Of a DNA stretch of 32,820 bases, positions 1-30,081 are shown piece by piece (within the stretch, counting starts at the first letter, position 1; each line of letters opens with the position of its first letter). Made by a program: the position numbers and the translations under genes. The DNA comes from a virus: IMG/VR virus record IMGVR_UViG_3300018424_000103, positions 1 through 32,820 of that record; one strand, 5' to 3'. Under the pieces are notes generated by a model that was given only the letters and a program-made list of their open reading frames with translations, searched no databases and was not told the DNA's origin.

Positions 1-2936
1 ATAGCCATTGATGCCAGTGTCTTTTCTGCTCCAGATCCCATAGACAACGGTCGAGGATCATATTTTGGATGTTTAATATATATCTCTAGCTTATCTCCGA
101 TATTATCAAAGAACACTTCGAATTCTACAATACTGTTCAGAATGCTTGATATCTCCGAGTTAATAATCGACAACATAGACTTGATAACTTGATAGGAAAC
201 ACCATTTGGATGCATTGCTTGGATAAACAAATCATATGCAATGTAGTCTCTCTCGTATTTCTGTATCTCATCTAGTTTTGATTGTGCCTCCTTTATCAGT
301 TGTTGGGTTGCTCCTTCCTCTGTTTTAAGGCCCATCACTTTCTTATCACAGCGTTTGATATCTTCTTGCTTTTCACTTAGCATTTTTTGCATTGCCCTAA
401 GATCTCTTTGCAAAGAATCGCGATTATCATAAGCTTCTTGGTTTTGATAGTAATGATCTTTCTTGCCTTGTAGGGCGGCTATCTGATTGATAAGCAACAT
501 TCTTTGTGACTTTAGACTTTCGACCTTTGACTCATGAGCCATGATTTGCGTTTTGGCTTTTTCAACATTACGCTCATTGGATTCATAAGAAGATATTGCC
601 AACTTGATCACACCTTCATCAAGACGATTTAGGGCCGATCTTTTAGAATCAACAATCGTTTGTTGTTTTTCTAATTTACTTTGTAGCGATGGCAGTTCTC
701 TTCTTGCTTCGAGAGCATCTTTCACAAAACTATTATCAGTACAATACTTACAATCAGGGTCATACTCATGATCGTGCAAAAGATTTATTTTCTTTTCTAA
801 AGAAGAAATTTTTGTCTTTGTGGTCTTAAGATCAAACGATGCTTGCTTAAGCTCATCAGATAGTGTGTTGATTTGCTCTAGTTGTTCTCGCAACTGTTCT
901 ATACCAACACCTTCATTCATATCTTCAAGAGATTGTATTTGAGCTAATTTAGTATTGATCTCGTCACCAACAGAAGCCAAAGAGCCACGAACTTGTGACA
1001 TTTCTTCTTGCTTGTTCCTAAGTTCCTGTAGAACCTCTGAAATATCAATCCATTCTTCTCCAGCTGCTGAAATTTGATCTTCGACAATGGAGATTTCTTG
1101 CCTTAACTCATCACACCGTTCGCTGAGAGTATTACATCTATCTTGTTGACCATCTATCTCTTCTAGTATCTCCTGTAGAGCTTCTTTGTTGTGTACAAGC
1201 TTCTTGTTCCAATCAATGGCCTCTAGGTGCTTAATGATACCTTTCAGTTCAGCAGAATCCTTCTTAGCTAATTTATGTTTAGCCTCAAACATCTGTAGAT
1301 CCAAAAACTTAGCCAGAATTTCTTTTCGTCTGGTGGAACCTTCATTAATAAAGCCAAATGAGTCCATCTGTGATGACATAGAGGTAATCATGAAGTCATC
1401 AAAGGTACCAAATGTTTTACGAATGTTGGCATCAGTCTCATTACGAGTGGTACCATTCTTACTCTCTGCCATTGTACCCAAAGAGTATTTGGTAAAGTCA
1501 AGATCAGTTTTAGCTTCTTTTGTTACAGAGCCTTTGCTTTTCTTTTCATATGACTCAAGGGTTCTCGTAATCTTATAAGAGTCATTACCGACTCCAATTT
1601 CGAGCTGAATTCTTGCTTTATCCTTGTTTTGGTTGATAAGATGGACGTTTTTACGCTCTGCCTTAGAGGTAGTATTAAACATTCCGAACAAAGCTGCATC
1701 GATAATACTAGACTTTCCAGAGTAGTTTTTCCCAAATATTCCAACCAATCCATTAAGATTAGCAAAATTAATTTCATTATCCTCTCCGTAATTAAAAAGA
1801 TTGCTCCACTTCATCTTTCTAGGCTTCCAGATAATGTTTCGAGAAATCTCTTCAGATTCTTCGAGTTGTTTGTTGTAGTTGTTATTAAGCTCTACAACTC
1901 GATCCATAACATCATCGGTAGCCTCTTTGTCAGATAAGAACAGTCGGATATATTCTTCTTGAGTATTTGGGTCTCTCATATTAATAATTCTGTTCTCAGA
2001 ACCATCAACAGTCAAGCCACCATCAGAATAGCCTGCCTTGTTTACGAAATTGACCGTGTAGGCGTTCCATTTAGTTCGGGCATAGTCACACGCCCTACGC
2101 AGTTTTGCGAGCGGCAGATTGTAATTTGAGACCAATCTGAGCCTTGCATTATTTGGAACATCAACATTGGGCAAAGTACCATCTTGATTGATATCGACTG
2201 TAAAGAATGGTCGAGGACTCATAAAGAATCTTTTCTCTACCGAATGATTATCTTTGTCTCGGATATCCCACAACAAGTAACCCTTGAGCAATGACTCTCC
2301 AAAGTTTTGTTGTACAGTAGAGCCACAATAAGCAACACGACAGTCATTATCCAAAAACTGCATACGGTGAATATCACCAAGCATTGCATAGTCAAACCCT
2401 GAGAAGATAGAAACATCATCCTCACCTGTCTCAAGCGACCAATCAGACCCAACCTTAGATCCCCTAATGGCCCCATGATAAAGAGCAATGTTTACCTTTG
2501 ATGAATCAGTTGGCTTACTCCAATTATCTCGATCAAACACGGAAAGCACATTTAGACAAAGATCGTCATTAACATGAGTCTCCCCAGAGTTTAAAAGGAA
2601 ATGTATATCAGGATGCTTCAGGGCATCAACTATTGGAGTGATTGCATCAAGTCTGTTTCCATTTTTTAGGTTACCATCGTGATTACCAGCAATAATGTAC
2701 AGTGGTGCAATATCAGCCAGTTTACTCAGAAACTCAGCTGCAATAGCAAAATACTCTGGTGATAGTTGTGTTTTTGTGTGGGCCAAGTCTCCACAGTGAA
2801 CAATAATATCTGGTAGGTCTCTTTCCAGTTGTTCATATATGTTTTGGAATACAAATTTGTATTCATCGTGATACTTTAAATTACGAATATGTGTATCAGA
2901 TATGTGGCAGATTCGCATTGATTTTCTTTTAGTCAT
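1..2936 (-). CDS. SbcD-SbcC (Mre11-Rad50, T4 gp47-gp46) fusion protein, 3' end outside window
   Basis: This is one open frame with no stop from ATG 2936 to the window edge (978 residues visible). Residues 1-320 are an SbcD/Mre11 metallophosphoesterase: D14-x-H16, G49-D50, G84-N85-H86-D87, H154 and G187-D188-x-H190. From about residue 370 an SbcC/Rad50 ATPase follows: Walker A G402-KNYSG-KS409, a long charged coiled-coil region, a zinc hook C729-KY-C732 near the coil centre, and the ABC signature G967-SGAEK-T973 just before the edge. The family processes DNA ends for recombination-dependent replication; in T4 and most bacteria nuclease and ATPase are separate subunits. The start has a strong GGAGGA site inside the end of the preceding endonuclease gene, which it overlaps by 8 nt. 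I found no good ribosome site before internal Met320 (1979), so two separate proteins look unlikely. The Walker B and D-loop part lies beyond the window. Confidence 0.93.
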   Translation of the reverse strand, partial: MTKRKSMRICHISDTHIRNLKYHDEYKFVFQNIYEQLERDLPDIIVHCGDLAHTKTQLSPEYFAIAAEFLSKLADIAPLYIIAGNHDGNLKNGNRLDAITPIVDALKHPDIHFLLNSGETHVNDDLCLNVLSVFDRDNWSKPTDSSKVNIALYHGAIRGSKVGSDWSLETGEDDVSIFSGFDYAMLGDIHRMQFLDNDCRVAYCGSTVQQNFGESLLKGYLLWDIRDKDNHSVEKRFFMSPRPFFTVDINQDGTLPNVDVPNNARLRLVSNYNLPLAKLRRACDYARTKWNAYTVNFVNKAGYSDGGLTVDGSENRIINMRDPNTQEEYIRLFLSDKEATDDVMDRVVELNNNYNKQLEESEEISRNIIWKPRKMKWSNLFNYGEDNEINFANLNGLVGIFGKNYSGKSSIIDAALFGMFNTTSKAERKNVHLINQNKDKARIQLEIGVGNDSYKITRTLESYEKKSKGSVTKEAKTDLDFTKYSLGTMAESKNGTTRNETDANIRKTFGTFDDFMITSMSSQMDSFGFINEGSTRRKEILAKFLDLQMFEAKHKLAKKDSAELKGIIKHLEAIDWNKKLVHNKEALQEILEEIDGQQDRCNTLSERCDELRQEISIVEDQISAAGEEWIDISEVLQELRNKQEEMSQVRGSLASVGDEINTKLAQIQSLEDMNEGVGIEQLREQLEQINTLSDELKQASFDLKTTKTKISSLEKKINLLHDHEYDPDCKYCTDNSFVKDALEARRELPSLQSKLEKQQTIVDSKRSALNRLDEGVIKLAISSYESNERNVEKAKTQIMAHESKVESLKSQRMLLINQIAALQGKKDHYYQNQEAYDNRDSLQRDLRAMQKMLSEKQEDIKRCDKKVMGLKTEEGATQQLIKEAQSKLDEIQKYERDYIAYDLFIQAMHPNGVSYQVIKSMLSIINSEISSILNSIVEFEVFFDNIGDKLEIYIKHPKYDPRPLSMGSGAEKTLASMA

Positions 2937-3612
2937 TTGTCCTCCATCTTTTATTATTGACCACTGACCAGACCATGTAATCCGTCAGGTTATATTTTTT
3001 CGCTAATGCTTTTTGGGTTATACCGCCACCTCTATACTCTTCTCTGATTTTGTGGACAATCTCCCAATTTAGTTTAGCATTACCATTATTCTCACCGGAG
3101 TTTGCTTTGCTTATTTTTTTCTTCACTTCATCACTTCTAGGTCCAGTAAAGTATTCTCCGCTCAAACCTTTATTCCAAGGCACTTGTCCTTTATGAGATT
3201 CAGAGAGGTTCTCCCTGTGTTCTTTGGACAATTTCTTTCCTCTATTCCAAGATTGCTTACCAAACATTCCATTGTTCTTACCGGAGTTAGCAATGGAAAT
3301 CTTTCCTTTTGTTTCCTCGGAATGTCTACCTCCTTCACCACCAGTGCGAAGATTGTAGCCTTTTTCTCTATCTAAGCAGGAAAATTTATCAATCCAAATA
3401 ACTTCTCTTTCAGATAATGTATCTTTGTCTGAACATTCTTCCAACACAACCCAATCCAGATTATCCCAACCATACTTTCTCATAGCATTGTATAATCTGG
3501 TTGTTTCATACGATGAGTGGTGCTTATGTTCTCTTTTTCTCTTATCTAAGGAGCATTCGGTTTTCCCAACATAGCGTTTTCCGTTTGGAAACAAGATACA
3601 GTAAATAAGCAT
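2929..3612 (-). CDS. GIY-YIG homing endonuclease with NUMOD3 repeats and C-terminal HTH
   Basis: The protein has 227 aa. The N-terminal GIY-YIG nuclease shows I3-Y4, then Y14-V15-G16, an Arg/His-rich helix with R25, R27 and H29, and a Glu in SEREVIWID as the likely metal ligand. The middle part has repeated NUMOD3-type DNA-binding elements (HSEETKGKIS, then LSKEHRENLSESHKG followed by WNKG). The last 45 residues resemble a helix-turn-helix that ends in the VNNKRWR pattern common in phage homing enzymes. Such enzymes cut a genome lacking their gene so that repair copies the gene in (established for I-TevI and the Seg enzymes). It is free-standing here, with no intron sign, and its last 8 nt overlap the start of the SbcD-SbcC gene. 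The start has AAAGGAG 6 nt upstream and a possible hairpin before that. It looks intact. Confidence 0.93.
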   Translation of the reverse strand: MLIYCILFPNGKRYVGKTECSLDKRKREHKHHSSYETTRLYNAMRKYGWDNLDWVVLEECSDKDTLSEREVIWIDKFSCLDREKGYNLRTGGEGGRHSEETKGKISIANSGKNNGMFGKQSWNRGKKLSKEHRENLSESHKGQVPWNKGLSGEYFTGPRSDEVKKKISKANSGENNGNAKLNWEIVHKIREEYRGGGITQKALAKKYNLTDYMVWSVVNNKRWRTND

Positions 3613-4594: not shown

Positions 4595-4909
4595 TCACTT
4601 TTTATGATTGTTTATGAAATCATTAATTACGTCTGCTGGTCTTGATCCAACCATTTCCCCAACATCATAACCGTTGGAAAACATGAGTAATTTTGGAACC
4701 GACCTTACATTGTATTCCATAAGAACACTTCTATCAAAATTGTCAATATCAACTTTATAAAAATAAACACCCGGATGTTCTGGTGTTACATTCTCCATAG
4801 TTCTGGTAAGTACCTTACAGGGTTGACACCAAGTTGCAGAGAACTGAATTACAACATTTCCTGAAGAGGTCAGTTCTTTAAATTGTTCTACATTATCTAT
4901 AACTTTCAT
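4595..4909 (-). CDS. Thioredoxin
   Basis: The 104-aa protein has the thioredoxin fold signature: active site W27-C28-Q29-P30-C31 at the end of a hydrophobic strand (VVIQFSAT), the KVDIDN segment, and the cis-proline in SVP72. It reduces disulfides and in many phages supplies electrons to ribonucleotide reductase; no reductase gene is in this window. QP between the cysteines differs from the GP of E. coli thioredoxin and would shift the redox potential. Translation is probably coupled: the stop of the 130-aa gene is 2 nt before the ATG, and its ribosome site (AAGGAGAA) lies inside that gene. It is followed by tRNA-Glu. Confidence 0.95.
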   Translation of the reverse strand: MKVIDNVEQFKELTSSGNVVIQFSATWCQPCKVLTRTMENVTPEHPGVYFYKVDIDNFDRSVLMEYNVRSVPKLLMFSNGYDVGEMVGSRPADVINDFINNHKK

Positions 4910-5431: not shown

Positions 5432-5459
5432 AATGTATCACGATAATTAATTCTGTCAA
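5432..5459 (-). promoter_or_regulatory. Promoter P3, sigma70-like with extended -10
   Basis: On the minus strand it has TTGACA (5459-5454, overlapping the TGA stop of the primase gene), a 16-nt spacer and TACATT (5437-5432) preceded by TGA. A-rich tracts lie upstream. The predicted start is a few bases before tRNA-Leu, so it should drive the tRNA, the 130-aa gene, thioredoxin and probably tRNA-Glu. Confidence 0.72.
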
Positions 5460-6394
5460 ATACTTTTTAGCATTTTTTCTAAAAAATACATTTCTCCATC
5501 AATTTCCTCCGCACAGTCGAGCTTTTGCCTAAAGGTTTCGGGACTCATTGAGCCAATATCTTCATAGTCATCAATTGGTACTTTATGTATCTCTACATCG
5601 TATTGCAGCATTGACTTGATAATCCACTTGGCTTTCTTTTCAGCATCAGGGTCAAGCGCCAAGTATACTGGTGTATCGTGTGCTGCAATAGCCTGAAACA
5701 GTCGTGACTCTTTCCTCAAGGTAGAGCCGAGGATAGGTACAGCGTTGTCACCTGCGACAATCGCATCGAAAACACCCTCCACAAGAACTGTCGGTTCATC
5801 CCAATCAACGCTAAGTTCATTAAAGATTATGTCACGCCCACAAGGCGGATTAAGATACCGACGATTATGCCCCACGTAAGAGCGAGCGATAAAGTAGTTG
5901 ACATCGCCGTCTGAGTTAAAGGACGGGATAATAATTCTTCCGCCGTATTTACCTTTCTCACAATATCCGATTTTCCATCTAAGGATCTCATTTCTTCCAA
6001 TACCTCGACTACGTAAATAGTCCAGTGGTCGCTTAGACTCCAAAGGTAGGTGCTTGTTGCACAAAGAAACGAACTCACTTGGGAGATCGATCACTTGTCG
6101 TTCCTCAACTTCGTTTATTTCGTTGACAATTTTATCAAATTCTGACAAGTCCAAACGACCAATCAGTTCTAGATACTGTTGTCGTTGCTTGTAATTACCA
6201 AATTTGCGAACAAGACGATAAATGTTCTTGCCGCGCTGATCACATACCCAGCATTTGAAGGCATTCACAGAGAAATTGACGGACATCTTTTTCTTGTGAT
6301 GATTACAGTAAGGGCAGTGAAAAAGAAACTCATCATTGGATCTTCTGTAAGACCCTAGAACTTCTGTAAGAATTTTAAGTTTGTTGTGTTGCAT
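5456..6394 (-). CDS. DNA primase (T4 gp61-like, zinc finger plus TOPRIM)
   Basis: The 312-aa protein starts with a zinc ribbon, C27-PY-C30 and C48-WV-C51. A linker of about 70 residues leads to the RNA polymerase core with the SRGI...WKIGYC and GGRIIIP segments and a TOPRIM fold: catalytic Glu in LVEGVFDA near residue 204 and the metal-binding ALDPDA near 245. It makes RNA primers for the lagging strand, working with a replicative helicase that is outside this window. T4 gp61 has 342 residues, so this is a slightly shorter relative. Start ATG 6394 has GAGAGG upstream and lies only about 11 nt after the predicted start of promoter P2. The C-terminus ends inside promoter P3. Confidence 0.93.
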   Translation of the reverse strand: MQHNKLKILTEVLGSYRRSNDEFLFHCPYCNHHKKKMSVNFSVNAFKCWVCDQRGKNIYRLVRKFGNYKQRQQYLELIGRLDLSEFDKIVNEINEVEERQVIDLPSEFVSLCNKHLPLESKRPLDYLRSRGIGRNEILRWKIGYCEKGKYGGRIIIPSFNSDGDVNYFIARSYVGHNRRYLNPPCGRDIIFNELSVDWDEPTVLVEGVFDAIVAGDNAVPILGSTLRKESRLFQAIAAHDTPVYLALDPDAEKKAKWIIKSMLQYDVEIHKVPIDDYEDIGSMSPETFRQKLDCAEEIDGEMYFLEKMLKSI

Positions 6395-6450: not shown

Positions 6451-6954
6451 TTAAATTCCTGAGAGGGCAACAATAACAGAGTCAGCCATGTCGTCTGTAC
6501 CGGGCTTTGGATTACCATGCCTTGTTAACTCAACAATGAAATCATTTGGGTATTCATTAGCAACCCATTCGATGATCATCTTCTTGGTATCGTCTCCGCG
6601 TTTAATTTTGAGGCCAACTTTCTTTCTTGCTGATGTAGCATTTACCAATTCAGCTTCTACCTCAAATACAATTGGTATGAGAATAGAAATCATTCCATTA
6701 AAACGCTGAAGTTTACTCATTGTCATAGCGGTTGTTTTACCACCAGAGAAAGCCATGAAAGGAGCCTCAATCAATACTTTATTAATATTATATTTATTAT
6801 TTATATTATTTAATATATCATAAAACTCTAATGCTCTTGTCTCTAAGGAAACAGAAGAATTAAATTTCTTAAACTCACATACAATAAGTTTCTTATTTTG
6901 ATCAATTATTGAGTAGCCGATCTTACTAGAGCTAACATCTAATCCTAATATCAT
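6451..6954 (-). CDS. RuvC-like Holliday junction resolvase
   Basis: The 167-aa protein has the RNase H-like resolvase fold: D6 in the first strand (ILGLDVSSS, which fixes the start at ATG 6954), E63 in KVLIEAPF, and the C-terminal pair D155 and D158 in TDDMADS. These are the four acidic metal ligands of RuvC-type enzymes. It would cut branched DNA made during recombination and before packaging, the job done in T4 by the unrelated endonuclease VII. The region around residues 45-60 is very A/T-rich (ILNNINNKYNI). There is no ribosome site upstream: a consensus promoter ends 5 nt before the ATG, so the transcript should be leaderless. Confidence 0.9.
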   Translation of the reverse strand: MILGLDVSSSKIGYSIIDQNKKLIVCEFKKFNSSVSLETRALEFYDILNNINNKYNINKVLIEAPFMAFSGGKTTAMTMSKLQRFNGMISILIPIVFEVEAELVNATSARKKVGLKIKRGDDTKKMIIEWVANEYPNDFIVELTRHGNPKPGTDDMADSVIVALSGI

Positions 6955-20277: not shown

Positions 20278-23200
20278 TTAATCTTCTCCGAATAATAACG
20301 ATGCTGAAGGAAAGATGATTGCTTCTGTGTAGCCTACGGAAGAACTTAGAATTCCATCTCGTGGTGCGTATCCATAAACCAATTGATCATCCCGCCAGTT
20401 TGAGCCACTAATTGCAGCATTTACCCAACTATACTGAAAATCAGAAGCGGGTAGTAGTGAAGTAAATAGGGCATTATTATGGAATTCTTTTGATTTTACT
20501 GTGTCTAGTTGTCTTCCTTGTTGTATCGTAACATCCTCTGGGTTGTTTTGTGCAGTGGCTGTAAGTGGCCCATTCAGCCCGTATGATGATTCGAAAGTTA
20601 CAACTGATGCTAGATTTTCTCCGAACTCTAAATCTGCCAATTCTGGTTCTTCTCCGAGTTTAAAGAATATTGATAAAGCAGAGGATCCCCACACTTGATT
20701 AATGTATTCTCCACCAACATCATTATCGTATATTGACTGTACATTGACTGACGAGAGAAGGGTTGAGAAGACTGCAAAGTCTGATATTATGGAATGGCTG
20801 TTAAAGTTTCCATTTGCAAAACCGGCACCAATAAGAATATTGTTATCAATCAATGCAGAGTTAACAGTACCGTCAGTGGTTGTAGACGTTGCAGTCAATT
20901 CTGTTCCGTTAACATATGCCTTGATATCAGTCAAGGCTTTATCTACCGTGACTACCAAGTTAATAAGTTCATCATAATAATTCGCAAATGATGCAAATTC
21001 ATTGGTTATTCGGCTAGTATTATCAGCTTCTTGATAAAATCTAACCGTCAAAACATTAGATGCATCAAGTGACAAGTAAAAATTATCTGTCCCGTCATCA
21101 GTTGCTATAATTCTCGCTCCAGTGCCTTGTGTCTTTATCCACATTGATATTGAGATACCAGTGGTTGCACCAACTGTGTCTACAGTTCCAGTCCTAACAA
21201 CTCCATCACCAAGGCTATCAAACTTAAGAGCATTTCTGTAGCCAGATATTTCCTTTCTAACAAGAGTGTTTCTGTGTTGTTTATGGAACGATGGTTGTGT
21301 TACATAGGTTGCACTTGAGACAGATCCAAATGTTGGATCATAGCCAAATTTACCTGAGTGTAAAGACAATAGTGTTCTTAGTCCTCGACCTTGACCAAGT
21401 TGATCGACAACTCTCATTTCTTCTGGTGCAGCTGAACCAGATCCTCTAACTGCTAAGTTTCTGAAGTTTAGCGAGTTATATACAGATCTTTCTCCTGTTG
21501 CAATGTCAAGAAACCCTCTTGTTCCAACATCTCTAGAACCAGGTGCCGAGAATCTTGTTTTGATGATTGCTTCGGAGATATCAGCACTTGCTGTGCTTGG
21601 CACTTCCCAAGTAGTGCTTCTGTCAATACGAGTTAATACCTGTGTGGTCTGAGGAAGGTCTGCCAAATCAGGTGGTAGAGTAAACCCTTCAGCTTTTACA
21701 AATGCTCTTTTGTTATCTCCAAAAGATGAGATTACTTGATAAAGCTTGCTATAGTTTCCAAGAATATTATCTGCTGCTACATCTCTGATATTCTGAATGT
21801 TTACTGCTCTCTTGACCCTTCCGTCACGATAGTAAATTGCCCACTCACGAGAAGTATCGATGTAGTCACCAGTAATATGGTCAGAGCCATATGAAGGACT
21901 AACAAATCCCATAGCACCGTCTCGATCATCTTCTGTCGGGTGTTCACCAAACTTTAATCGCCATCTCTCTGGACGTGAATATTGGTCGTCAACGTTGTTT
22001 AGTGTTGCACCACCACCTTCGGTTTGCAAAGATGTGTCGAACTTGTTGATAGCAACGTGTCTTGATTGATGACCACCAACATGAGTTTGAGTGAATGGCC
22101 CTTGCATTGGTATTTCATTGGTAAAATCAGTGATGTCTGAGTGTAAGTTTACAATCTCTGCATCCTTCTTAAAGAGGCGGCTAACCTGCTGGTTATAACC
22201 ATTTTCTACTGTTGCCTTTTTGAGATTAAAAGGAAAATACTTCTTACCTTCTAATCGATAAACAAAGCCATCAAGCTCAGACAATGGCTCCCCATTAGAA
22301 TCATCTGAGTATTTACCCACCTGTGCTGTGAAATCATAATACTCTTTCGCTGTTGGTGGTTTTGGATCATCACACTTTTGTTGTTCATTGATACCAGTAC
22401 CAGGACCTGTACCGACAACAAATACGTTTCTTGGAGTACCTGATGGGAATAGTCCACCTTGTGGGTTCACCGCTGTTGATATAAACTCTCGATCTTTCTT
22501 TGGAATATAGTTGACACCACCATGAATGGTGTTTTTAAGATCAATCCCAACACGATATGGTTTGCTCAATCTTCTGGTTGCATATGTCGAGCCTTGGTAG
22601 ATTGTCTTATCGGGTTGTGCCAAGTTCACAGCAGATGCCGAAACATCAGTTGTCAAAACTTGCCTAATTGTTTCGCGATCTGTAATATCTGTTCTTTCTC
22701 TTCTTTCTTTCTGCCACAAGCAATGACTATTTTCTTCGGTAGTGTTACCGATAATAGTACCTTGATCAAATACATCCTCTACAAATTCAGCTGTTGCTAA
22801 TGGAACTGGTGTTAATGGCGTAAGATTATTATCGTTTCTTACATCGAAAATTTCTGATGTTGTATCACCATCAGCATCACCCATTCTGTAACTGGCAATA
22901 AGATCAAGTCTTCTTGAGAATTCCTCTGCTACATTAAAGTAAACTCCATTATTATAAAGCTCCGAAAAATCAGCAGCATCGAGAGATCCGGTTATAACAT
23001 TAAACTCATCCAAAAATACAGCAGATTCAGTGTTCTGTCTCAAATCAATTCTATCGACAATAGCCAACACATCATCAATTCCAGTACCTGAAGATACGGT
23101 GGTTGACTCTAAGGTACCGTTGATGTAAATATAAACATTGGCAGAAGCTAAACTAATCCCCTCAAAGTAAACACCAACCTGTGTCCAGTTAGTGAAATCA

Positions 23201-26200
23201 AAAGTATTGACTGTTATGTGCTTTTTAAAATCATCCGTGGTAGTAGATCTAGTCTGGATCTTTGTTCCTCCAGCAGTCTGCAATATCTCAATAGCAAATT
23301 GATTAGAATTTGAGCTTTGATCAAACCTAATAACCTTAAAGTTTGCTGCAAGAGTTGGTGTTGTCTCAAGTTTCATCCAGAAAGTTGTGCAGAATCTGTT
23401 AAAAGTTGGAGATGGAGAGGCCCTAAACCTAGAAGCATCAGTTCCTGTTTGACCAATTTTTAAACTGAATAAGTTTTGGTTCTCGAAGTTCCTATAATCT
23501 GGTGCATGTCCAAATTCCCAATTATAATTGAGTTCGTTAATTCCCCTGATTGACCCTTCTGTTGATGAATATCTGGTGAGGAGTCCTGGTCTGCTTTGAT
23601 ACTTGTTTCGCTCTAGGATATGAGACTCAACAACATCAATGACACCTTCACTATGTCTTACAGATGCTGGATACAATTGCTCGACCATTGTTGATATTGA
23701 CGAGTCAATCCACTTATAGTAATTTGTGAATGTCTCGAAGTCAATGTCTTGCTCGACTCTCTCAAAGAAAATTGCCCTTGCATGGTCAAGAGACTTATAG
23801 TTTAATCTATATCTATCAACTGCATGACCAAATAGGTTTGCGAATTCTTGTATTGTAGAGAATGTCTTTAGCATCTCTTCAGAAACAATAGCATAGAGAC
23901 TCTTCTCTAGGATAAAGAAGTTATCGCTTACATCCTCGTCCTTAATGAAGTTGATTTGTTCTTCGCCTTTAATTGTGACTGTATCGGAGGAGAAAGATAT
24001 CTCAGGAAGTTCTTTCTTTAAAGAGAAAACATACTCATATTCTGCAAATGTTGTTTTGTTTGCTCCAAAACCAGCACCCTTTGCCCTATGTTCGCGTCGG
24101 ATAATATTATCTATCCATCCATAGATTGTATCGGTAGAGCCGCTGCTGAAGTCTTCTACAATAAAGTTACCAGATCCATCAGAGCCAGTTACAGTATCGA
24201 ATTCCCAATGAAGTATTGAGAGTTCACTGGACGGTATCTGCTTATTGTTAATGGTGAATATGTTATCAGATTGTTCAGACTTGGATAAACCATAATTCAT
24301 CGGATCCTTGTTGTGTTCTCCGATAACAGCGTCATCAGCATATGCTAACCATGCTCTTACAGCTCCGATTTCCACATCTGTTTTTTCGATGACAGAGCCA
24401 GTGAAGTTAAGCAAATGCGATCCAGCGTAAACACGCTTTGGATTAGAAAGATACGCAGACCCTGATGTATATGAGATAGAGGCGGATAAAGAAACTTCGT
24501 TCTGTATTGATCCGTAGTTGTAATTTACAGCGTAAAACTCGACATCATAGCTAGGATTTGTATTTGTAGCGACATCAGCATAAGGATAAGTCTCTGGCTT
24601 GATTCTTAGTGCCAAGTTCCAGTGTTGATTATCGTATATACCTTTGATATAATCTGATTCTAGAAGAATTGATCCATCTTGGTTTTCGATAACAAAGCGA
24701 GCATCTGGTGAATTATATTCATTTCTTACAAGATAAACTTGCAAGTTTGCAAACTCATTTGTCTCCCAAGTATAATCTGATGGATCAGATGGAATGGCCT
24801 CATGAAAACCAAACACAGAAGACGATAAGAATGGAGTGTAGTAAAAGCCTGTCTCGCCTCGCGGAACCTTAAAGGGCACTAGTATGTCTGCCTCAAGAGT
24901 AAACGCGCTGTATTGCTCTTCTAGGCCCGTTAAAGAGCCACTAATAAAGGTGTTCGAATTGTTTGCTGATGAGGTTTGGTAAATTGTAGCAGAAGAGTAC
25001 TGAGATTCATTAAAATTAATGTATTTTATTCTCGATGAAGTCTCTTTTGACTTATCTGATAGATAGTGCATACCTTCATCAGTATAGACATTAAGCTTAA
25101 CAATCTCATCATCAACACCAAAGCAGCGAATAAAGTTTCGTATTGACCTCTCAGTACCTTTTGACTTAAGAATACCCTCAAGGTTATTATAGATATTGAT
25201 GTAAATTCTGTTCTTTATCTCATCGATGTTCTCTTCGAAGATATTCGAGTTGATATCTTTGTTTACAAAAAGCTCAAGGATATCATTCTCAACAAGAATA
25301 TCGGATGTTGCGAAACCTTTTTCTTCCAACAAGCGTCTTGCAAAAGGAGGTGCCTTGTACTCTTCTTCATAATACGTCTTATCCTTCAGAGAAGTTACTG
25401 CTTTGATTTGAGTGTTTAGTTGGTCAAAATAAGCACCTATGATTTGATAAAGCTTCTCAAGGTTTTTATCGCCAGATTGATCTTGCTCAACAACCCAGTT
25501 AGGTAAAGTATAATATAATTGATTTCCATACTCTGCATCGTAAAGAGAGCCTGAAACCTGCATTTCGGTTATAAGAGAAGAAACTGATGGGTGTGTAGAA
25601 TATATAATTGGATCACCGATCTCTGTCCCATTGCTGGATAGATTGATTGCAGATCCAGTATTACGAGATGTGCTTTGATAGCCTGTCCAAGTTCCGTTGG
25701 CAATCCTTCCAGAATAATCCAAGACATTAGAGTCGGTAGCAGCAACTGTTGTTATACCTTCGTTAAACTTATAGTAAAGGCCAAGATCAACAGTGTTGTC
25801 GTCTGTATTTGCTCCTCCACCGATTTGTCGGTTCCAGCCAATGTTAATCTGACGAGATGTTCTTCTGGTCTTCCAAAATCTAAGTTCATCCAGATCAGCA
25901 ATAAGTTTACCATCACCTGGTGATTGTGATTCTCCAGCGTGCGCTGTTTGTAGGGCACCAACATAACCATTCACAAGTCCGGTAAATGCAGCAACATTGG
26001 TACCCAGATTTTGCTCAAGGTTAAGTGCTCCATTCACATAGAATCTTACTTTTATGCTGCTCCCATCATTGATGAAAGAAACTGCATAATGGTTCCAATC
26101 AGCAATAAATGCTGTATCAATCGCACTTGTGCAAATTGCTGTTCTGAAAAATCCATCTGGGGTAGAACCTTGCTGTACAGTTGCAGTAAAGGCAGCACCA

Positions 26201-26865
26201 GCACCCAGAACCAATTCGATAGTTAAGCGTCCATAATTTAAGGATGTTGGCCCTTCACCGTTCCACAGATCCAAAATTACTTCTCTTACACCATTTGATG
26301 GAATAGTATCCTTTTTTAGCCAAAACTCAACTGTATTACCGACATCTAAATCAACGGGAAATACTTTTCCTCTTTTATTATCTGGGTCATATTTTGCGTT
26401 TTGCCCAAAAGCTGTGGATATTCTTGCGGTCTCTGAGAAATCATTTCCTGTTCTCAAGCCACCTGCAACAAAGATATATTCGCTTGATGTATAGCCATTA
26501 CCATAACCAGGACCATCTTGACCAGTTGCCTGACCGGATTCACCAAGCGATGCATAACCTGTTGTCTTTGGATACTTATTGTCAAATAACCATCTGTCAA
26601 GATAAGAAGATGAAAGGTGAAACTCTGTCTTTTCTTTTAGTGATCCATCATAAGGATATTCGCCATAAATTCTCTCAATAGAGTTTTTGTAATATAGCTC
26701 TGCTGAACCGTATGTAACAAAGTTAGAAGCTGTTGCAAAGTCAATAGGTGGAATATAAGTCTGTCTTTCCTCGATTTCTTTATCGATGAATTCCGGAGAC
26801 TCTACATCTTGACTTAAATCGTCATAACTTTTTACTTTTCGTCCAAATAAATCCTTAATACTCAT
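20278..26865 (-). CDS. Giant tail protein with concanavalin/LamG-like modules
   Basis: The protein has about 2195 aa from ATG 26865; an in-frame TTG at 26874 is possible but less likely. Three LamG/concanavalin-like modules are visible, each with a WNHYAVSF- or WTQVGVYF-type strand, a YVNG or YINGT turn and a D-E/F-closing strand: about residues 150-375, 1140-1335 and 1880-2075. A fourth, weaker one lies near 620-870 (QHWNLALRIKP, then VEIGAVRAWLAY). Between modules 1 and 4 is the patch SKGTERSIRNFIRCFG. Such modules bind sugars in known proteins, so a role in host surface contact is likely. No chaperone or peptidase domain is seen at the C-terminus (ends SASLLFGED). It overlaps the preceding gene by 11 nt. 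Confidence 0.88.
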   Translation of the reverse strand: MSIKDLFGRKVKSYDDLSQDVESPEFIDKEIEERQTYIPPIDFATASNFVTYGSAELYYKNSIERIYGEYPYDGSLKEKTEFHLSSSYLDRWLFDNKYPKTTGYASLGESGQATGQDGPGYGNGYTSSEYIFVAGGLRTGNDFSETARISTAFGQNAKYDPDNKRGKVFPVDLDVGNTVEFWLKKDTIPSNGVREVILDLWNGEGPTSLNYGRLTIELVLGAGAAFTATVQQGSTPDGFFRTAICTSAIDTAFIADWNHYAVSFINDGSSIKVRFYVNGALNLEQNLGTNVAAFTGLVNGYVGALQTAHAGESQSPGDGKLIADLDELRFWKTRRTSRQINIGWNRQIGGGANTDDNTVDLGLYYKFNEGITTVAATDSNVLDYSGRIANGTWTGYQSTSRNTGSAINLSSNGTEIGDPIIYSTHPSVSSLITEMQVSGSLYDAEYGNQLYYTLPNWVVEQDQSGDKNLEKLYQIIGAYFDQLNTQIKAVTSLKDKTYYEEEYKAPPFARRLLEEKGFATSDILVENDILELFVNKDINSNIFEENIDEIKNRIYINIYNNLEGILKSKGTERSIRNFIRCFGVDDEIVKLNVYTDEGMHYLSDKSKETSSRIKYINFNESQYSSATIYQTSSANNSNTFISGSLTGLEEQYSAFTLEADILVPFKVPRGETGFYYTPFLSSSVFGFHEAIPSDPSDYTWETNEFANLQVYLVRNEYNSPDARFVIENQDGSILLESDYIKGIYDNQHWNLALRIKPETYPYADVATNTNPSYDVEFYAVNYNYGSIQNEVSLSASISYTSGSAYLSNPKRVYAGSHLLNFTGSVIEKTDVEIGAVRAWLAYADDAVIGEHNKDPMNYGLSKSEQSDNIFTINNKQIPSSELSILHWEFDTVTGSDGSGNFIVEDFSSGSTDTIYGWIDNIIRREHRAKGAGFGANKTTFAEYEYVFSLKKELPEISFSSDTVTIKGEEQINFIKDEDVSDNFFILEKSLYAIVSEEMLKTFSTIQEFANLFGHAVDRYRLNYKSLDHARAIFFERVEQDIDFETFTNYYKWIDSSISTMVEQLYPASVRHSEGVIDVVESHILERNKYQSRPGLLTRYSSTEGSIRGINELNYNWEFGHAPDYRNFENQNLFSLKIGQTGTDASRFRASPSPTFNRFCTTFWMKLETTPTLAANFKVIRFDQSSNSNQFAIEILQTAGGTKIQTRSTTTDDFKKHITVNTFDFTNWTQVGVYFEGISLASANVYIYINGTLESTTVSSGTGIDDVLAIVDRIDLRQNTESAVFLDEFNVITGSLDAADFSELYNNGVYFNVAEEFSRRLDLIASYRMGDADGDTTSEIFDVRNDNNLTPLTPVPLATAEFVEDVFDQGTIIGNTTEENSHCLWQKERRERTDITDRETIRQVLTTDVSASAVNLAQPDKTIYQGSTYATRRLSKPYRVGIDLKNTIHGGVNYIPKKDREFISTAVNPQGGLFPSGTPRNVFVVGTGPGTGINEQQKCDDPKPPTAKEYYDFTAQVGKYSDDSNGEPLSELDGFVYRLEGKKYFPFNLKKATVENGYNQQVSRLFKKDAEIVNLHSDITDFTNEIPMQGPFTQTHVGGHQSRHVAINKFDTSLQTEGGGATLNNVDDQYSRPERWRLKFGEHPTEDDRDGAMGFVSPSYGSDHITGDYIDTSREWAIYYRDGRVKRAVNIQNIRDVAADNILGNYSKLYQVISSFGDNKRAFVKAEGFTLPPDLADLPQTTQVLTRIDRSTTWEVPSTASADISEAIIKTRFSAPGSRDVGTRGFLDIATGERSVYNSLNFRNLAVRGSGSAAPEEMRVVDQLGQGRGLRTLLSLHSGKFGYDPTFGSVSSATYVTQPSFHKQHRNTLVRKEISGYRNALKFDSLGDGVVRTGTVDTVGATTGISISMWIKTQGTGARIIATDDGTDNFYLSLDASNVLTVRFYQEADNTSRITNEFASFANYYDELINLVVTVDKALTDIKAYVNGTELTATSTTTDGTVNSALIDNNILIGAGFANGNFNSHSIISDFAVFSTLLSSVNVQSIYDNDVGGEYINQVWGSSALSIFFKLGEEPELADLEFGENLASVVTFESSYGLNGPLTATAQNNPEDVTIQQGRQLDTVKSKEFHNNALFTSLLPASDFQYSWVNAAISGSNWRDDQLVYGYAPRDGILSSSVGYTEAIIFPSASLLFGED

Positions 26866-28282
26866 TTTTAACAACTCTTATCTTGAAAGTATACGGCTGC
26901 TCTTCATAGCTATCCGAGTCTAAATTATAAATAGAATATCGTATTCCGTATGTGTAATTAGGCTCCAATATAGAAGTGTCAAGATAAAAATAGTTGCCCG
27001 ATACATCATATGAAAGCCTAGTGTGTTGAGAAGAACCTGTTCCATACGGAACAACGGTTTCTCCATCAATCGATCTAAAGATTTCATATGAGGCACTCTC
27101 AAAAATTAAGCTCGAAGGGATTGTGTTTGCGACTGTAAAAATACTCGGCGACCAATCTTTTTGTCTCGCATAAAGCCTCAGTTTATGAGTTTGTTGGTAC
27201 TGATAGTCTCTCTTGAGACCAGGCATGCTCAAAACATATCTAGCATCTTCAGTATATGCTTGGCTATTGTTCCGCTTAACCGAGATTGATCCTGTATAGT
27301 ACTCTGTCGCACCTGAGAACCATACGTCTCTAAGGGTAGTTGCTGTTGTTTGTACACCGATTGAGCAGGAGTATATACCAGTAGATACATACCCTCCAGT
27401 AGCTGGAGTATCAACTGCAAGAGTCAAAGCACTTCCACCAAGAGTTTCATAGAGGTTAACATATATTTCACCAGTACCAACGCCTGGAATATTAGCCAAC
27501 CTACCTCTGGAATAGTTATACAGATAGATTGTGTTTAAGTTGTCTTCTGCTGGTGCATTTGATGAGGAGGCATAAAAGTCTCCACGATCATCTCGTAAGG
27601 ATGAATCCCAACGTGCCTCAAGAACAGGTCTCTTAAAGAAGAACTCAGAACTCCTTGCAAAAAACTTTTTGGTATAATATGACTTTGCTCTGTTCTCGAA
27701 AGATGTTGGTAACTTAACCATGAAGCCATAGTTTTCTTTTGTTCCATCAATCCATTCGTTGACCAATGATGTAACATTGATCTCCAAGTCTTCAGTGCCA
27801 ACGTCAAAACTACCGCTAAATGTTGGAGATACATGAGTATCAGCACCCTCAGAAACCCAAGATGTAGACCCAGATCTTTTAATCCAGTTTGAGCCAACAA
27901 CATCATATGTGAGATCTGTGTAGTTCTCCATATCTAGACCAACACCTTCTTGCCAAGAAGCAGAAACTGCCAGTACCTCAAGATCAAATTGTCTAGGAAG
28001 AGTTCCCAAATGCTCTGCATTAAACATCTTGAGATAGTATGACGCACCAGAAGGGACACGGCCTGCATCGATATCATTTGACAAGGTATCTATTGGAAAC
28101 TGAACAATGATTCTGGAAAGCTCCGACGATAATCCATCAGAGCCGGAAACTTGAGCGTAAATAGAAAAAACCTCAAGGATATCTGCCTCGCCCATATTGG
28201 AACCAGTCCCTCTAGTGACCAGTGTCTCATCAAAGGCGTTTGTGATTGTATTGTCCGCTGTTGCAAAATATCTTTTAATCAT
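26855..28282 (-). CDS. DNRLRE-domain-like structural protein
   Basis: The 475-aa protein has an N-terminal half that follows the DNRLRE (CBM96-like) pattern: FATADNTITNAFD at the start, LSRIIVQFPID near residue 65, a YYLKMFNAEHL strand, and LEINVTSLVNEWIDG with NYGFMVKLP near 170-195. The second half has beta-rich parts with Ser/Thr/Tyr (YEIFRSIDGE, YTYGIRYSIYNLDSD) that could be a sandwich domain. DNRLRE domains occur mostly in surface and extracellular proteins; here the gene lies directly after gp6, so it probably joins the baseplate to fibres. GGAAGGA lies upstream; the ATG shares a base with the stop of gp6. Confidence 0.8.
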   Translation of the reverse strand: MIKRYFATADNTITNAFDETLVTRGTGSNMGEADILEVFSIYAQVSGSDGLSSELSRIIVQFPIDTLSNDIDAGRVPSGASYYLKMFNAEHLGTLPRQFDLEVLAVSASWQEGVGLDMENYTDLTYDVVGSNWIKRSGSTSWVSEGADTHVSPTFSGSFDVGTEDLEINVTSLVNEWIDGTKENYGFMVKLPTSFENRAKSYYTKKFFARSSEFFFKRPVLEARWDSSLRDDRGDFYASSSNAPAEDNLNTIYLYNYSRGRLANIPGVGTGEIYVNLYETLGGSALTLAVDTPATGGYVSTGIYSCSIGVQTTATTLRDVWFSGATEYYTGSISVKRNNSQAYTEDARYVLSMPGLKRDYQYQQTHKLRLYARQKDWSPSIFTVANTIPSSLIFESASYEIFRSIDGETVVPYGTGSSQHTRLSYDVSGNYFYLDTSILEPNYTYGIRYSIYNLDSDSYEEQPYTFKIRVVKNEY

Positions 28283-30081
28283 TATGCAATCCTTCCTCTA
28301 ATGTCTGCATTTGGATATTTAAGTTCCATAATTACATTTTTTGGTGCCTTTATGAAGGTTCCATCATCACTTCTCATTTCGTCAAAATTAAATCTTGTTG
28401 ATGAATAGTTGGTCCCTGTTTTAGGAATAATATTAACGCTTTTTACGTCTGCCACTCCTTCCACTTTACCAAGCACAGAGTATAGATTTGTAATAGAAAC
28501 TTGTTCCCCAATATATAGTTGATTAGAGAATTGCTCTTTAATAGCCTCTACACATCTACCTACGATATCATATTGACTATACCTCTGATCGACTGTAATC
28601 TTAAAATCAACACCGAAATTTACAATCTTAGCATCAAAGATATCAATCGTATCATTGAGAGCCTTGTAATTAGAGATCCAATTCTTAACGTTTAGCTTTA
28701 TGTTACTGTTTGCAGTTGTTAGTTTTCCATCTCTATCAACAGAAATCAGGTACATTGCCAATCGACGATTGGTCGATGAAGGATCATTTACGACGTTTAC
28801 TCGCCTAACTTTTCCAAACTTAGCTGGCATGCTGTAAACCAGTGATTCATAATCCTGTTTTGTAACTGCTCTGCTCTGAGAGGCATAATAGGTTTTAGCG
28901 TTTTGCTTTATTTCTTCATTAGTCATATCGGAGTCTCCTCCGATAATTGGCTCTTCGTTAGATACTTCCAATGAATTTATAACCTCAGTTACTCTAGTGG
29001 CAGATAGCGATTGCAGATCATCGAAATCAACATCTCTAAACTTAATTGTCCTAATGGAATCAACAGCCGAGTTGATATTTGTCGAGTCATTTGTCTTGGT
29101 AATTATCGTAAGGATAGTGGCTTGTGGCGCAATACCCAGTTTTGATGTTCCAAGCAATTTTGACGGATCAAACGATAATGCAGTAATCTCTCTCTTGCCA
29201 TGCATCTTGATCGCTAATTTGGATGGTTCTGCGAGACCTTCTGGTTCATCAGTTTCATCTCCAAAACCAAATTGTATATATGTTCCGGTATCATCTTGTT
29301 CTACAACAAATCGTCTAGAAGCCACAAATGGCTTGATGATTGATCTTACGCCGTCGGAAGCGGCATCTTTATTAGTTACTTCTTTAAACACAACTTCTTG
29401 TGCCAAGTTCTCTACTTCGAAATATTCATTTCCATCTGAATCTTTTACTGATATTACCTCTGAGGTATCAACGCCACCAACTTTAATTTTTCTGAACTTC
29501 TTAAATGTTGCATTTGTAAGATCAGAAGTAGAACGTTGGAATACTCCAGATACTACCTGTCCATAATTCTTTGCTGCAAAATAAGTCGTTGCGCCGGTGG
29601 TGGTATTAAACCTAGCTGCCACAATTTCTGTTGTATCGGCATCAAAACGAACATCTTCAGTCAATGTATATGTGGCTCCATTTGCATTAGTAAAAGCAGT
29701 TCCGCGCTTTACAATTGGATAATAGCTACTATCCGGTGCAGTTCCGTCACCGTTTGCAGGGATAAGACAATACAAGGCCACCTGGCCATAAGCACTTGGT
29801 TTACCTGCAAATTTATATCCCAATGATCTTGCTAGTTTTCTTGTGTTACCTTTTTCGATTGAGGTATCCAAAAATGATTCATTTACCTGATAATCGAGAT
29901 AGTAGGACAGGATATCACCAACATAAGCTACTGAGTCGAGAATCAAAGAGTTAACTGATAATTGACTAAAGTCTTTATATGTATCTGGGTAGTGTCTCTT
30001 TGCGTATTCTTCCAAGTCTCTCTTGATAGAATCAAAATCTCTACTGGTGTAATTTATGTTGATATTTTTACCTTTAGGCAT
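28282..30081 (-). CDS. Baseplate wedge protein, T4 gp6/baseplate J-like
   Basis: The 599-aa protein starts with the typical wedge region: NINYTSRDFDSIKRDLEEY, then YKDFSQLSVNSLILDSVAY and VNESFLDTS followed by RKLARSLGYK. The middle has the IQFGFGD strand and the C-terminal third has AVTKQDYESLVYSMPAKFGKV and repeated strands (FKITVDQRYSQYD), as in the baseplate J/gp6 family. T4 gp6 has 660 residues. In T4, gp6 dimers form the ring around the baseplate hub with gp25 and gp53. It lies 42 nt after gp25, the order known in contractile-tailed phages. GAGGG lies upstream of ATG 30081. Confidence 0.92.
   Translation of the reverse strand: MPKGKNININYTSRDFDSIKRDLEEYAKRHYPDTYKDFSQLSVNSLILDSVAYVGDILSYYLDYQVNESFLDTSIEKGNTRKLARSLGYKFAGKPSAYGQVALYCLIPANGDGTAPDSSYYPIVKRGTAFTNANGATYTLTEDVRFDADTTEIVAARFNTTTGATTYFAAKNYGQVVSGVFQRSTSDLTNATFKKFRKIKVGGVDTSEVISVKDSDGNEYFEVENLAQEVVFKEVTNKDAASDGVRSIIKPFVASRRFVVEQDDTGTYIQFGFGDETDEPEGLAEPSKLAIKMHGKREITALSFDPSKLLGTSKLGIAPQATILTIITKTNDSTNINSAVDSIRTIKFRDVDFDDLQSLSATRVTEVINSLEVSNEEPIIGGDSDMTNEEIKQNAKTYYASQSRAVTKQDYESLVYSMPAKFGKVRRVNVVNDPSSTNRRLAMYLISVDRDGKLTTANSNIKLNVKNWISNYKALNDTIDIFDAKIVNFGVDFKITVDQRYSQYDIVGRCVEAIKEQFSNQLYIGEQVSITNLYSVLGKVEGVADVKSVNIIPKTGTNYSSTRFNFDEMRSDDGTFIKAPKNVIMELKYPNADIRGRIA

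Follow-up and report, generated by a model that had tools for sequence, protein, structure and literature searches.

The questions raised by this locus were whether the terminal minus-strand frame of a viral contig encodes the Mre11/SbcD nuclease and the Rad50/SbcC ATPase as a single protein, and what such a protein might do. The window, i.e. the whole stretch of DNA that was analysed, was the 32,820-base IMG/VR record IMGVR_UViG_3300018424_000103 (positions 1 to 32,820). The first-pass annotation had described one stop-free frame running to the window edge and carrying the motifs of both proteins. That frame was recovered at 3-2936 on the minus strand; it starts with ATG, comprises 978 residues with zero stops, and is open at the window edge. 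The positions that had been assigned to Walker A (G402-S409, GKNYSGKS), the zinc hook (C729-K-Y-C732), and the ABC signature (GSGAEKT, from G967) were all exact. From the N-terminus, the frame encodes a Mre11/SbcD phosphoesterase with its capping domain, a helix-loop-helix (HLH), a short linker, and the Rad50/SbcC ATPase N-lobe, followed by a coiled coil that bears a CxxC zinc hook and then by the beginning of the C-lobe, which contains the ABC signature. The features are given below; the HLH and the linker were placed with the aid of a structural model of the nearest relative, termed L002.

3..2936, minus strand: fused SbcD-SbcC (Mre11-Rad50) gene, truncated at its 3' end by the contig edge, which leaves 978 aa
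2037..2918, minus strand: Mre11/SbcD-like phosphoesterase and capping domain, about residues 7-300 (PF00149, PF12850; invariant across relatives; SbcD/Mre11 fold matches)
1854..1970, minus strand: predicted helix-loop-helix, about residues 323-361 (L002 model helices, +6 in window numbering; alignment)
1833..1853, minus strand: short linker from the last HLH helix to the first ATPase strand of the model, with conserved R366 and N367
1257..1832, minus strand: Rad50/SbcC ATPase N-lobe (PF13476, phrog_77), with Walker A at 1710-1733 (GKNYSGKS)
741..752, minus strand: zinc-hook motif C729-K-Y-C732 at the coiled-coil apex (sequence, alignment of relatives, model)
21..38, minus strand: ABC signature GSGAEK, residues 967-972, in the truncated C-lobe (sequence, alignment of relatives)

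Profile searches identified both parts in the same chain. In Pfam, Metallophos was matched at residues 7-190 (E 9.8e-12) and AAA_23 (the SbcC/Rad50 N-lobe) at 376-607 (E 2e-12). Among the PHROGs, the SbcC-like phrog_77 spanned residues 335-976, and a metallo-phosphoesterase family was found at the N-terminus. A PDB-sequence profile search with the fused protein returned SbcC, Rad50, SbcD, and Mre11 entries. The gene at 3..2936 on the minus strand is a genuine Mre11-Rad50 fusion in one protein.

Because the window ends within the C-lobe, its Walker B, D-loop, and stop were deduced from relatives. A scan of IMG/VR yielded 58 relatives of the fused gene, and an alignment-based scan yielded at least 585 confirmed matches, the best 80 of which were kept. 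The nuclease, the ATPase N-lobe, and the ATPase C-lobe were found in a single frame in 126 fetched loci from many metagenomes; some of these are near-copies of one another, and nearly all other loci were cut by contig ends. Complete genes in relatives were single open frames of 1,038-1,072 aa, most of them within 1,040-1,070 aa, and their C-termini contained Walker B (FILDEP), the D-loop (ALD), the switch His, and a stop. L002, an IMG/VR contig that is 83% identical, supplies precisely these elements, in frame, as the end that is missing from the window. Both halves of the Rad50 ATPase are accordingly accounted for, with Walker A in the window and Walker B and the D-loop in relatives having the same ORF. 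When bacterial and archaeal genomes were searched, 11 loci were returned, each from a metagenome-assembled genome and most of them on a short contig; one (L065, from WOR-3) had a run of N within the gene, and two (L071 and L072) contained the SbcD part only. No fused relative was found in the plasmid collection that was searched. Trees of the nuclease part and of the ATPase part, which were built for counting fusion events, had long branches. The Mre11-Rad50 fusion is widespread in aquatic phages.

The first-pass annotation had also named what would overturn the fusion: a stop or frameshift hidden by an assembly error near 1980-2040, or a start in the region of Met320 that would give a separate SbcC. 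Many phages do have the two genes separate but close (e.g. phiAGATE, S-SZBM1, and PSTCR5). At the junction, no stop or frameshift was present in the 41 distinct aligned sequences. No ribosome site was found at the Met320 codon, and a GGAGG site was present at most true starts of the fused genes. Met320 itself is unconserved: several of the aligned relatives carry V, L, or I there. In the comparison of the window with L002, dN/dS was ~0.05 for the junction (residues 300-400) and ~0.04 for the entire gene, both values being approximate owing to the near saturation of synonymous sites; the junction is thus under strong purifying selection. With one frame in the 126 loci and in isolates such as Mel-JY01, no ribosome site at Met320, and this dN/dS, an assembly error, a frameshift, and an internal start were all rejected, and the production of two separate proteins, to which we assign a negligible probability, is refuted at the level of the sequence. 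Two separate genes of the unfused gp46/gp47 type were not found here.

The single-chain model of L002 (mean pLDDT 78.8) agreed with an Mre11 part followed by a Rad50 part, although its pTM of 0.46 makes the relative placement of the domains unreliable. The modeled order was phosphoesterase, capping domain, two-helix HLH, and ATPase with a long coiled coil; the latter extended to a CxxC apex (C723, C726) and then returned. In Foldseek, the same chain matched both Mre11/SbcD structures (7dog, 6s6v_A, and 3av0_A) and Rad50/SbcC structures (7zr1, 7yzp, 3qku, and 5dny). The helix-loop-helix of Mre11 contacts the root of the Rad50 coiled coil. In the model, the helices at residues 317-328 and 335-355 were joined by a short linker to an ATPase strand at 363; judged from this prediction, the HLH that links Mre11 to Rad50 in other organisms is retained and is here tethered in cis. 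About 7 residues separate the last HLH helix from the first ATPase strand of the model, and the linker length needed had been estimated at 9-12 residues (PMC3175470).

The metal site departs in part from the canonical pattern. The motif residues of the fused protein are D14xH16, G49D50, G84NHD87, H154, and G187DIH190, and D14, H16, D50, N85, H86, H154, and H190 show little or no variation among the aligned relatives. The statement that all SbcD metal-binding motifs are present was therefore slightly overstated: most ligands are kept, but GDxxD reads GDLAH, and the canonical GHxH is replaced by GDIH (D188-H190), with D188 present in 41/41 aligned sequences. With Asp in place of this His, metal binding by the fused protein may differ. 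A stronger proposition is that the nuclease is inactive and that the fusion works solely as a tethering ATPase; the uniform presence of Asp at a canonical ligand position speaks for it, but the near or full invariance of D14, H16, D50, N85, H154, and H190 and the ability of Asp to ligate metal render it very improbable. Moreover, the unfused SbcD of phage PSTCR5 has the same substitution (GDLH), as do some other fused phage proteins, and thus the substitution is no mark of fusion. GDxxH, together with Asp in place of the leading His of GHxH, is likewise reported for Mimivirus R555 (PMC3175470).

In addition, 17 related large phage records, for which there is no completeness estimate, were searched with phrog_77, phrog_100, and PF00149. 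These profiles matched the fused frame in the 17 records, and in 16 of them the fused gene was the only SbcC/SbcD that was clearly detected; the additional matches were one 257-aa phosphoesterase (G012) and, in two records, SbcC-profile matches that were weak and partial. RecA was present in all nine records longer than 145 kb, as well as in a 120-kb record. In the window, a primase gene lies near the fused gene:

5456..6394, minus strand: DnaG-like primase gene (phrog_47; the Pfam match is below the curated cut-off)

The primase is a conserved neighbour: among the fetched loci, 103 likewise gave a primase profile match close to the fused gene. Considered together, the 126 loci, the purifying selection at the junction, the lack of an internal start, the model, and the lack of a separate pair in relatives support a single-chain Mre11-Rad50 of a large marine tailed phage, which is likely to act as a dimeric end-processing machine for RecA-dependent recombination and replication. 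The fusion of the genes fixes the stoichiometry at 1:1. Two chains would dimerise through their ATPase heads upon ATP binding, with the nuclease domains and the zinc hook as possible further contacts, and would then correspond to the known Mre11(2)-Rad50(2) machine; each HLH would pack on the coiled-coil root of its own chain. The access of the nuclease to DNA ends would be gated by the heads as ATP drives them open and closed. Phage DNA ends would be resected or cleared such that the phage RecA could load, leading to recombination-dependent replication and break repair, as gp46/47 does for T4. We infer the dimeric state, the packing in cis, the nuclease activity, and the replication role of the fused protein. 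The role in recombination-dependent replication, which is drawn by analogy with T4 gp46/47, is supported by the fused gene's usually being the sole detected SbcCD in the related records, by the presence of RecA, and by the adjoining primase.

The main job of the protein could instead lie elsewhere, e.g. in the degradation of host DNA or in counter-defence, and we regard this as improbable, although less so than an inactive nuclease. T4 gp46/47 also contributes to host DNA degradation, which counts in its favor, and some of the fold matches were to the defence SMC complexes Jet and Lamassu, as any SMC-like protein would be expected to give. In both sequence and fold, however, the best matches were to genuine Rad50/SbcC and Mre11/SbcD, a primase adjoins the gene with a RuvC-like gene nearby, and the fusion is usually the sole SbcCD of RecA-carrying phages.

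The novelty that the first-pass annotation implied for the fusion did not hold. A 2011 study by Yoshida, Claverie and Ogata had already reported Mre11/Rad50 fusions from plasmids, bacteria, and eukaryotes as well as from Mimivirus (R555) and Bacillus phage 0305phi8-36; it found marine viral metagenomes to be rich in R555 homologues that had phage primases in their vicinity, and it argued that some of the homologues may be phage-borne (PMC3175470). The window gene fits that description closely. As in R555 by its published description, Mre11-like N-terminal and Rad50-like C-terminal parts are found in one ORF in the same domain order, with the capping domain, the HLH, and the short linker kept; the marine viral setting and the neighbouring phage primase are shared with the GOS scaffolds of the same study. 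R555 differs in its length (1,351 aa) and in belonging to a eukaryotic virus, and Mimivirus lacks RecA (PMC3175470), whereas the window's family includes complete genes and long phage contigs with RecA. A literature search for later reports on phage Mre11/Rad50 fusions found only PMC3175470 to treat them.

Fusions also occur in isolated phages in GenBank, where SbcD-like and then SbcC-like parts are found in a single CDS, as in the window: Microcystis phage Mel-JY01 (WWT39521; 30% identity to the window protein), Tenacibaculum pT24/PTm1, Chryseobacterium MA9V-1, Sphingomonas PAU (gp288), and Thermus phiLo (gp161). The Tenacibaculum, Chryseobacterium, and PAU proteins are ~1,300 aa long (pT24, PAU, and MA9V-1 being loci L147, L148, and L149, respectively), and that of phiLo has 866 aa. 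Their annotations read 'AAA domain containing protein', 'DNA repair', 'endonuclease subunit', or 'metallo-phosphoesterase'. pT24 and PAU match a PHROG of their own, phrog_35725, which is named only 'metallo-phosphoesterase', a name that hides the ATPase half. With T4 gp47/gp46, SbcD/SbcC, and archaeal/eukaryotic Mre11/Rad50, the window protein shares the domains, the motifs, the coiled coil with its CxxC hook, and the predicted fold; those systems consist of two polypeptides from two genes, and the window encodes one polypeptide.

The present survey extends the fragments of 2011 to complete genes and wide conservation, and it provides evidence that the fusion is usually the sole SbcCD detected in large related phage records. 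Tentatively, and with somewhat less than even confidence, we suggest that a broad uncultured lineage of marine tailed phages has one end-processing machine only, a fixed single-chain Mre11-Rad50 that is coupled to a phage RecA, and that the 1:1 stoichiometry and the HLH contact in cis may alter assembly or regulation relative to T4 gp46/47. The picture of how the Mre11-Rad50 complex works is unchanged by the survey. A natural single-chain form would be a convenient subject for structural and mechanistic work, its stoichiometry being fixed.

Some minor observations concern mobile elements and the remaining genes of the window. Immediately upstream of the fusion, and outside it, lies the following gene:

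2929..3612, minus strand: GIY-YIG/NUMOD3 homing endonuclease gene

A gene of this kind was found just upstream in a few relatives only (L021:4325-5008 and L144:1743-2429). It overlaps the start of the fusion by 8 nt (ATGACTAA) in the window; the corresponding sequence in L144 is GTGACTAA. The GGAGG ribosome site of the fused gene falls in the last codons of the endonuclease (K-R-W-R in the window). Since the end of the endonuclease gene both carries this site and overlaps the start codon, its insertion supplies a new translation start for the fused gene, and from this start the window protein has a few extra N-terminal residues compared to L002. A 305-aa ORF with matches to an HNH-endonuclease family and to TnsA-like proteins splits the fused gene of a 484-kb phage (LR756508.1; L061:2944-7169) within its nuclease domain, so that the gene is there in two pieces. 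A thioredoxin gene (4595-4909, minus strand) and the RuvC-like gene (6451-6954, minus strand) belong to the gene cluster that also contains the primase and fused genes. The remainder, 6978-32689 on the minus strand, contains long genes (up to 2,198 aa) that mostly have no family matches; as a baseplate wedge protein (28282-30081) and laminin-G-like domains (20278-26874) occur among them, this region is probably a tail and baseplate module.
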